Shown here in pieces: positions 42,206 through 44,346 of a stretch of 64,000 nt of DNA. The stretch's first letter is position 1. The number at the start of each line of letters is the position of its first letter. Source of the DNA: Alicyclobacillus shizuokensis NBRC 103103 (lineage in GTDB: Bacteria > Bacillota > Bacilli > Alicyclobacillales > Alicyclobacillaceae); NCBI RefSeq assembly GCF_001552255.1, contig NZ_BCQV01000005.1, positions 1-64,000 on the forward strand, written 5' to 3'. The notes under the pieces are model-generated. The model was not told the origin of the DNA, made no database searches, and saw only the letters and a list, made by a program, of their open reading frames with translations. Position numbers and translations under genes: made by a program.

Positions 42206-42808
42206 TCACACATGATTGGCGCCTGCCTGCGGCGGTGTGTTCTCGGTGGCCTGGACCTGGCGCCACAGTTCGTTGCGGGCTGCGACCGTACCCGGGTAGA
42301 TGGCTGCATGCCGCACAATCAAATACTGGATAGTCGCGTCAAACGACTCAGCCAAGGCTCGCATCAGATCACGGCGCGCCAGCTCCCGCAGGTGTTCGAC
42401 TCGCGGATAGCGGCGTGTAGGTTCCACGGCGTCGGCCAGACACAACACGCACTCCAAGCGCGACATGCCGATCCGCCCGGTGGTGTGATAGAACACGGCG
42501 TTGCGGATGTCTTCGTCGGTGATGCCAAATTCACTCACCGCCAGGCGCGCCGCCACCGGGCCGTGCCACAGCTCGGGGATGGCCATCATCTCCTCCGGCA
42601 GCCCCATCGTCTCGACCACCGCCAACAACCGCTCTGGCGGCCACTCCCGGGCGTAATCGTGAAGCCAGGCGGCCAGACGTGCCTGCTCCACATTCACGCC
42701 GTGGTGCACAGCCAGCTCTGCTGCCGTCGACACCACCCCCTGCACGTGCGCAAAGCGGGCGGGCGACAGCGCGCGCTGGACCTTGGCCGCAATATCCGAC
42801 TCCTTCAT
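42206..42808 (-). CDS. yqeK: HD-domain protein YqeK (symmetrical Ap4A hydrolase)
   Basis: 200 residues. Metal ligands in RFAHVQGVV, AAWLHDYAREW, LWHGPVAARLA and CLADAVEPTR. YqeK proteins hydrolyse Ap4A to two ADP. The C-terminal 30 residues are longer than in B. subtilis. Follows nadD by 58 bases, precedes rsfS by 16. Confidence 0.93.
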   Translation of the reverse strand: MKESDIAAKVQRALSPARFAHVQGVVSTAAELAVHHGVNVEQARLAAWLHDYAREWPPERLLAVVETMGLPEEMMAIPELWHGPVAARLAVSEFGITDEDIRNAVFYHTTGRIGMSRLECVLCLADAVEPTRRYPRVEHLRELARRDLMRALAESFDATIQYLIVRHAAIYPGTVAARNELWRQVQATENTPPQAGANHV

Positions 42809-42866: not shown

Positions 42867-43457
42867 CTACACGGGCGCATCCGCCCGCTGCCAGACGCGA
42901 ACGACCCGTTCTGGGATCAATCCGCAGGCCGACTTTCCCGCCAGCAGTCGCTGCCTGAGCCACGTGGAGGAGACATCGACGATAGGCATGTCGATGGCCC
43001 GCAGGCGCAGACCGGGCAGCTGACGGGACACCCGCTGGAACAACTCCTCAGTCGGGTAGCCGGCGCGGGGCGCGACAAGAAACGGGATGTCCCCCGCCAA
43101 TCGCTCTGCGCCATGCCACGTCGGCAAGGTTTGCAGGCTGTCGGCGCCGATGAGAAACCAAAAGCTGTGTTCGGGGTGACGCCGCCGCAGCTCCGCCACC
43201 GTGTCCACGGTATAGGATGGCGGCGGCAGTTCCTGCTCAATCGCACAAACCAAGAGCCCGTCCCGGCCGTCGATCAGCGCGGCGACCATCTCCGTACGCC
43301 ACGCGAAGTCCTGATACGGCCTTCCTTTGTGCGGCGGCACGGCCGCCGGCATGAACCAAACTTGGTCGGCTCCGGTCTGCTCCCGCGCCAACTCCGCCAT
43401 CACCAGATGGCCGATGTGGGGCGGATCGAACGTGCCACCAAAGACGATGACCTCCGT
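42867..43457 (-). CDS. nadD: Nicotinate-nucleotide adenylyltransferase NadD, apparent ACG start
   Basis: 196 residues if translation begins at an ACG at 43457-43455. The frame then opens EVIVFGGTFDPPHIGHL, which contains the family nucleotide-binding motif GGTFDPPHxGH; later motifs are AAVPPHKGR and VDVSSTWLRQRLLAGKS. No ATG, GTG or TTG exists between the in-frame TAG at 43463-43461 and the motif. The first standard starts (43403, 43400) would delete the motif. AGAGGGG lies seven bases before the ACG, exactly where ATG would be expected. NadD adenylates nicotinate mononucleotide in NAD synthesis. Confidence 0.9.
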   Translation of the reverse strand, partial: TEVIVFGGTFDPPHIGHLVMAELAREQTGADQVWFMPAAVPPHKGRPYQDFAWRTEMVAALIDGRDGLLVCAIEQELPPPSYTVDTVAELRRRHPEHSFWFLIGADSLQTLPTWHGAERLAGDIPFLVAPRAGYPTEELFQRVSRQLPGLRLRAIDMPIVDVSSTWLRQRLLAGKSACGLIPERVVRVWQRADAPV

Positions 43458-43485
43458 CCTCTATCCCCTCTTTCCTACGCCTGGC

Positions 43486-44346
43486 TCAGAGCCCCAGCGA
43501 CGCGCGCGCAGCCTGGCGCATCACTTCCACCGGGGCGCTGACGCCGAGCCAGAATTCGAGCGCCTCCACTCCTTGGCGCACCAACATATCCAGTCCATCC
43601 ACCCGCTCGGCACCGCGGCGGGCGGCCTGCTGCAACAGACGCGTCTCTAGCGGACGATAGACCATGTCCTGCACAACCTGGCCCGGGTGCAGGCAAGTTT
43701 CGTCGTCAATCGGCGACGTGTCATCCTGCGGCCACATGCCCATCGGCGTCGCGTTGACGACCACGTCGGCGGCCGCCACCGCTTGTTCCCGCTCCCGCCA
43801 CGACACCAGGTTTACAGATATGTATTCCTGAAACGAAGCAGCCGTCTCTGCCGCCTTCTCCAGGTTCCGCGCCGCCAGCCCCACTTCGGCCGTCGGCGCG
43901 TACAGGGCCAGCCCGGCCAGAGCCGCGCGCGCAGCCCCGCCAGCGCCAAGGATGACCACACGCTTTGGCATTCGCGGCAACGCCGTCCGCAGGCTTGTCC
44001 ACCACCCGGCGACATCGGTGTTGTGGCCCATCACGTCGGCCGCTTCCGGGTCTTCCCCATCAGAGTAGGGGTGCAGGCGCAAGGTGTTGACCGCCCCGGC
44101 CAAGCGCGCCTCGTCCGAGTGCCGGGGGGCCCACTGATAAGCGCCCAATTTGTGCGGAATCGTGATGTTGACCCCACCCGCTCCGAGCGCCAACAAGCCG
44201 TCCAGGGCGGCCTGCAGGTTCGCTGGCGGCACAGCAAACGCCAGGTACACCGCGTCGATGCCAAGCTCCGCGAACGCCGCGTTCATCATCGCCGGCGACG
44301 CTGAATGAGCCACCGGCCACCCCAGCAATCCATACACTCTCTTCAT
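43486..44346 (-). CDS. aroE: Shikimate dehydrogenase
   Basis: 286 residues. Shikimate-binding SASPAMMNAAF, catalytic lysine in NITIPHKLGAY, aspartate in MGHNTDVAGW, NADP site GAGGAARAAL and NATPMGMWP. It reduces 3-dehydroshikimate. GGGAGGAT precedes ATG 44346. The yhbY RNA-binding gene usually between aroE and nadD is missing. Confidence 0.96.
   Translation of the reverse strand: MKRVYGLLGWPVAHSASPAMMNAAFAELGIDAVYLAFAVPPANLQAALDGLLALGAGGVNITIPHKLGAYQWAPRHSDEARLAGAVNTLRLHPYSDGEDPEAADVMGHNTDVAGWWTSLRTALPRMPKRVVILGAGGAARAALAGLALYAPTAEVGLAARNLEKAAETAASFQEYISVNLVSWREREQAVAAADVVVNATPMGMWPQDDTSPIDDETCLHPGQVVQDMVYRPLETRLLQQAARRGAERVDGLDMLVRQGVEALEFWLGVSAPVEVMRQAARASLGL

Follow-up and report, generated by a model that had tools for sequence, protein, structure and literature searches.

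From which codon is nadD of Alicyclobacillus shizuokensis NBRC 103103 translated? The gene is needed for making the vital cofactor NAD, and in the window (the whole stretch of 64,000 nucleotides that was analysed, positions 1 to 64,000 of contig NZ_BCQV01000005.1) the place of its start seems to be taken by ACG, a codon with which bacteria are not expected to start. Judging from the comparison of sequences, we think that in this genus, Alicyclobacillus, translation of NadD begins at ACG with the ordinary fMet-tRNA, and we give this reading a probability of about 0.8. Should the genus really have nothing but ACG with which to start its single nadD, then a codon of this kind can persist in nature in front of an essential enzyme. 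There is a practical side as well, in that annotation limited to ATG, GTG and TTG can, throughout a genus, strip an essential enzyme of its active site.

The comparison covers three Alicyclobacillus genomes: that of the window, A. kakegawensis NBRC 103104 and A. herbarius DSM 13609. On the minus strand of the window, the order at the beginning of nadD is GGAAAGAGGGGAT, TAG, AGG, ACG, GAG, GTC, ATC, GTC and FGGTFDPPHIGH, within a stop-to-stop frame of 197 codons (Table 1). The first-pass annotation had claimed that no ATG, GTG or TTG occurs from the in-frame TAG to the nadD motif, and this holds: the first one in frame is GTG 43403, and direct reading of the stretch from the aroE stop to ACG finds none, whichever the frame. 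Its placing of ACG seven bases after AGAGGGG was confirmed by reading the sequence, and the codons it had listed before the motif (AGG ACG GAG GTC ATC GTC) are all present, but the last GTC is already the V of the VFGG motif. It was also right that automatic annotation would cut off the active site, as a call restricted to ATG, GTG and TTG starts inside the domain. The active-site motif is lost from GTG 43403 and equally from the ATG directly 3' of it. This ATG is present in all three species, while the GTG itself is GCG in A. kakegawensis, and the predicted Shine-Dalgarno duplex is -1.7 kcal/mol for the GTG and -4.8 kcal/mol, with a spacing of 0, for the adjoining ATG.

Table 1. Features at the nadD locus, in positions of the window, with the basis for each.
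Feature	Position	Strand	Basis
nadD coding sequence, ACG to TAG, 196 codons before the stop	42867..43457	-	frame read; TIGR00482; 1kam
ACG, putative start codon	43455..43457	-	same aligned codon in A. kakegawensis and A. herbarius; no ATG, GTG or TTG upstream in the open frame
In-frame TAG, two codons 5' of ACG, upstream end of the nadD frame	43461..43463	-	sequence read
GGAAAGAGGGGAT, Shine-Dalgarno block, identical in three species	43463..43475	-	alignment; predicted duplex with the genome's own 16S tail, -11.6 kcal/mol
aroE, upstream neighbour, 28 bases from its TGA to ACG	43486..44346	-	sequence and model match
yqeK (HD domain), downstream neighbour, ordinary ATG	42206..42808	-	sequence and model match
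GTG, first standard start codon in the nadD frame, inside the conserved domain	43401..43403	-	frame read

The identity of the gene is clear from its product, which scores 154.7 bits (E 3e-45) against TIGR00482, above the cut-off of 112.45, and below the cut-offs of the other NadD models listed. It also matches the solved NadD structure 1kam (E 5e-36), which we take to be the enzyme of B. subtilis. The N-terminal GGTFDPPHxGH motif is in frame, and it is retained only if translation starts upstream of 43442. A second complete nadD had been raised in the first-pass annotation; a single one was found in the genome of the window, a draft assembly rated 99.68% complete, and no other NaMN adenylyltransferase was found there. 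The genome holds three further PF01467 (cytidylyltransferase-like) proteins, which score above the cut-offs of CoaD, TagD and RibF models, and no NaMN or NMN adenylyltransferase model was among those exceeded.

In both sister species the full nadD frame is kept, with a protein identity to the window of 94% in A. kakegawensis and 67% in A. herbarius. The position in relatives, to which the first-pass annotation had pointed, reads ACG in both, neither ATG nor GTG, and thus ACG stands at codon -5 from the motif in 3/3 species. No ATG, GTG or TTG precedes the motif in the 6 open codons of A. kakegawensis or in the 17 of A. herbarius; the in-frame TAG just 5' of ACG is found in the window and A. 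kakegawensis. The codons of A. herbarius around the site are AAC ACG GAC ATC ATT CTT, and among codons -5 to -1 ACG alone is invariant across the three species. Across the aligned genes 40% of the codons and 49% of the third positions are identical between the window and A. herbarius, and of 259 ACG codons in the window 87 are still ACG and 206 still threonine in that species. By itself the conservation of ACG would be modest evidence, and it gains weight because there is no standard start in any of the three species.

More can be read from what surrounds the codon. Counted from ACG, codons 2-19 of the window and A. herbarius are the same in 9 cases, synonymous in 6 and conservatively changed in 3 (E/D, V/I, V/L). 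Between the Shine-Dalgarno block and ACG there is a length difference of one base (AGAGG in the window and A. kakegawensis, CAAC in A. herbarius), and the reading frame is therefore not kept upstream of ACG. Judged by this pattern of substitutions, the coding signal is one that begins at ACG.

To see how uncommon such a site is, nadD loci were collected by a regular expression for the motif, which gave 144 loci and 137 distinct sites, distinct meaning by the 120 bases around the motif; the loci on genome contigs were the best 80 of a longer list of matches. The sites were grouped by sequence, so that they stand for similar genes more than for orthologues established one by one. In 134/137 sites a standard start codon (ATG, GTG or TTG) stands in the open frame five or more codons ahead of the motif, presence being no proof of use, and the remaining 3/137 are the three Alicyclobacillus species, all with ACG at -5. 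The nearest standard start in the 134 sites is mostly at -6 (61 sites) and then at -5 (31 sites); this count takes in starts from -4 outwards. Genome G037, which has only a fragment at a contig end, lies outside the census. In a NadD tree of 45 rows the three ACG sequences form one branch (support 100/99, in a bootstrap that had not settled). The tree omitted row L129, whose nadD has GTG when read by eye. One origin would, on this tree, suffice for the ACG start, and the three species count as a single event retained in evolution, not as three.

The surroundings of nadD differ among the relatives. In a related genus NadD seems to have an in-frame N-terminal extension of about 20-30 residues, with an ATG or GTG overlapping or near the aroE stop (L085, L090, L092, L094, L097, L100-L104 and L106). 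Some members of the family have, just before nadD, an ORF whose last residues are QIELP-like and which is probably yhbY (L084, L086, L088, L096, L099, L107, L108 and L110); in Alicyclobacillus (L001-L003) aroE is found directly upstream in its place. An extended -10-like motif (TGGTATACT, with the close variants TGCTATACT, TGTTATACT and TGATATACT) occurs upstream of nadD in several genera and in differing reading frames (L085, L089-L095, L097, L098, L100-L106, L109, L120-L122, L124, L126 and L129).

The distance from the GAGG of the Shine-Dalgarno block to ACG is 9 bases in the window, 9 in A. kakegawensis and 8 in A. herbarius, which is a normal spacing. The 16S tail GGATCACCTCCTTTCT was found in the genomes of the window and A. 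kakegawensis, and the predicted duplexes of the block with the tail in the three species are -11.6, -11.7 and -11.6 kcal/mol. The A. herbarius assembly (G001) has no 16S rRNA match and the other two genomes have one each, which is probably due to an assembly gap. The strength of the nadD duplex looks ordinary: -11.6 compared with a median of -11.45 kcal/mol for 76 start picks in the window, picks that were chosen partly by duplex strength. The block also holds GGGGAT, which fits the extended Shine-Dalgarno motif GGGNAT described in PMC13009471, but this is no special mark of nadD because 27/76 of the start picks fit that motif or its sister motif as well. Folding gave no common RNA structure around the nadD start in the three species; the predicted unpaired probability of the Shine-Dalgarno region is 0.62 in the window, 0.37 in A. 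kakegawensis and 0.07, that is paired, in A. herbarius, and that of the start 0.42, 0.31 and 0.79.

The foremost rival to ACG is a start further downstream. One candidate is the ATC three codons 3' of ACG (ATT in A. herbarius), from which the protein would read M-V/L-F-G-G at its N-terminus, and A. herbarius offers a second one in the ATC two codons 3' of ACG. AUU and AUC are better documented as non-standard starts than ACG, and infC in the genus appears to use ATT. The ATC of the window and A. kakegawensis and the ATT of A. herbarius occupy the same alignment column, codon -2, and in the first two species AGAGG stands 9 bases before it. However, A. herbarius has CAAC instead of this AGAGG, and the best duplex for the -2 codon is -12.9 kcal/mol with a spacing of 0 in the two species and -6.0 kcal/mol with a spacing of 14 in A. 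herbarius. The A. herbarius ATC at -3 has a duplex of -9.4 kcal/mol with a spacing of 10, but the same codon is GTC in the window and A. kakegawensis. The standard starts counted in the 134 sites, a count that leaves those nearer than -4 aside, all lie at -5 or further, and a start at -2 would therefore shorten the first beta strand. We consider a downstream start unlikely, and on balance ACG is favoured, since no other site suits all three species.

The other explanations have still less in their favour. ATG is one base change away from ACG, and the first-pass annotation had offered an assembly error as an option. A sequencing mistake is however very unlikely because ACG is common to all three species, the other two in separate records, again with no standard start, and in A. 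herbarius with diverged flanks; as far as sequence allows the option is refuted, and we give it next to no credence. The position of aroE directly upstream on the same strand could suggest that NadD is a frameshift or readthrough product of that gene, but from the end of the aroE stop to the nadD motif the distance is 43, 42 and 35 bases in the three species. These are three different frames, which speaks against such a product, and in the window and A. kakegawensis there is an in-frame TAG just 5' of ACG. This idea is hardly credible. The same can be said of editing of ACG to AUG in the transcript in the manner of plant organelles: we know of no such mRNA editing established in bacteria, which counts against it, and what speaks for it is the ACG-to-AUG editing described for chloroplasts (PMC9845219). 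A search for DYW deaminases gave 0 matches in the genome of the window but also 0 in 14 control genomes, and so tells nothing either way. One could also imagine that nadD is decaying, with NAD made by another route. Loss of the start is a common first step of gene decay, which counts in favour of this, but both sister species retain the full frame, with proteins 94% and 67% identical to that of the window, and the other PF01467 proteins fit models of other enzymes, as described above. Decay is perhaps a shade less implausible than editing or readthrough, and still very improbable.

A wider use of ACG starts was looked for among 77 conserved ORFs of the window, picked so as not to overlap; 16 of them were compared by eye with both sister species and the remaining 61 judged from the table only. 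Besides nadD, 14/16 of those compared by eye have a standard start close to the point where conservation sets in; for one of these 14 the A. herbarius codon, GTG, was checked separately. The conserved ORF pick at 343-1872 on the minus strand is in the wrong frame, with stops in the A. herbarius copy.

An ACG start would call for an initiator that accepts it. Rfam gives 53 tRNA matches in the genome of the window and ARAGORN, run on stretches covering all 53, gives 53 genes. Each list has one entry that the other lacks, a weak match of 29.8 bits in that of Rfam and a Thr-GGT gene in that of ARAGORN. Two initiator-like tRNAs, both with the anticodon CAU, look ordinary when judged by eye, from what we take to be the features of initiator and threonine tRNAs. 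A special initiator with the anticodon CGU was considered and rejected, since the sole tRNA with CGU that was found resembles a normal threonine elongator; the survey is of a draft assembly and of the Rfam-matched stretches, and a tRNA elsewhere could be missed.

To our knowledge genetic code table 11 does not list ACG as a start codon, and Hecht et al. reportedly measured all 64 codons in 2017. The matches on ACG starts in our literature search came mostly from organelles, eukaryotes and their viruses, and the examples in a bacterial setting that were examined are laboratory mutants and one virus gene. Among the matches listed there was no natural bacterial gene with an ACG start; subscription journals lie mostly outside the search, and an earlier report is possible. 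Reconstructed start switches away from AUG are described as going to GUG, UUG, CUG and AUU (PMC5622118). In a reconstituted E. coli system, with tRNAs that carried acetyl-proline, no product was obtained with most pairs that departed from Watson-Crick at either of the first two codon bases, and the authors conclude that IF3 demands Watson-Crick pairing at the middle base (PMC10158994).

Output from ACG in E. coli mutants ranges from a few per cent of normal to none. Changing the AUG of hns to ACG left 3-13% of the wild type with transcription raised 16.8-fold (PMC6064147), and bjaR with an ACG start is still active at a lower level (PMC10449621), whereas the same change is reported to eliminate the truncated form of IF2 (PMC3334882), and a kanamycin-resistance gene starting with ACG is called defective (PMC13067763). 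The hns and bjaR mutants resemble nadD in having ACG before a bacterial gene, and their expression is weak, but all of these are laboratory changes that are neither natural nor conserved, and in the IF2 and kanamycin-resistance cases expression is reported as lost or the start as defective. Either Alicyclobacillus ribosomes tolerate more, or very little initiation is enough, or translation begins at the ATC/ATT after all.

If NadD is made from ACG, the conserved Shine-Dalgarno sequence would position the 30S subunit and hold it long enough for a low rate of initiation. The ordinary fMet-tRNA (CAU) would be accepted with its outer two bases paired and a C-A mismatch in the middle, and the protein would begin fMet-Glu-Val-Ile-Val-Phe-Gly-Gly. 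It is plausible that such a start is weak and limits NadD, and a low output of the enzyme would, we infer, be tolerable or even useful. IF3 may be expected to repress the start, by analogy with the GTC of sigR and with infC (PMC5472188). A bolder idea is that the CAU initiator reads this natural bacterial ACG through a protonated A-C wobble, so that NAD synthesis would be set by the level of IF3 together with the cytoplasmic pH of an acid-loving host, the codon serving as a pH-responsive control of an essential pathway. The pH dependence is something we infer because these bacteria are acid-loving; the consulted part of PMC10434157 gives no measured cytoplasmic pH for the genus, and we regard the whole idea as a long shot.

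Conserved non-standard starts are already known, and infC served as a control. In all three species (loci L144, L142 and L143) it has TTGGAGGTGA as Shine-Dalgarno sequence and reads GGAGG, 9 bases, and then ATT AGC AAA GAC, with no ATG, GTG or TTG in the printed codons before or at the start. The ATT was thus recovered as expected, and the approach therefore shows a non-standard start where one is expected. Elsewhere infC starts at ATT in E. coli, ATC in Streptomyces and AUA in S. aureus (PMC5472188, PMC13009471). As nadD seems to have, it has a non-standard start, and its spacing of 9 from GGAGG to ATT in the genus equals that from GAGG to ACG; unlike nadD it has the mismatch at the third base, and it encodes IF3 and autoregulates.

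The sigR gene of Streptomyces, described as starting with GTC in 32/34 species and GTT in 2, with an extensive ribosome-binding site and repression by IF3 (PMC5472188), shares with nadD a non-standard start codon that is conserved. The middle base is there still U, though, sigR is a regulator gene, and its start was shown by mutation and Western blot, whereas that of nadD is predicted from sequence. In S. aureus, ccpN, cvfC1 and citZ start at AUA, AUU and AUA, which in poor medium are reported to yield about 10% of what AUG gives, and an extended Shine-Dalgarno sequence is described for infC, cvfC1 and ccpN (PMC13009471). These starts too are non-standard, but their mismatches are at the third base, and ACG was not found in the main text of that paper. 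Chloroplast genes have ACG at the place where AUG is expected, as nadD does, but there it is edited to AUG in the transcript (PMC9845219). Set against conserved non-standard starts of the infC, sigR and ccpN kind, nadD has no standard start in 3/3 species and keeps the same codon in 3/3. A natural and conserved ACG, mismatched at the middle base, would be a novel form of such starts and, if true, would lend itself to testing how IF3 and ribosome binding are traded off against each other.
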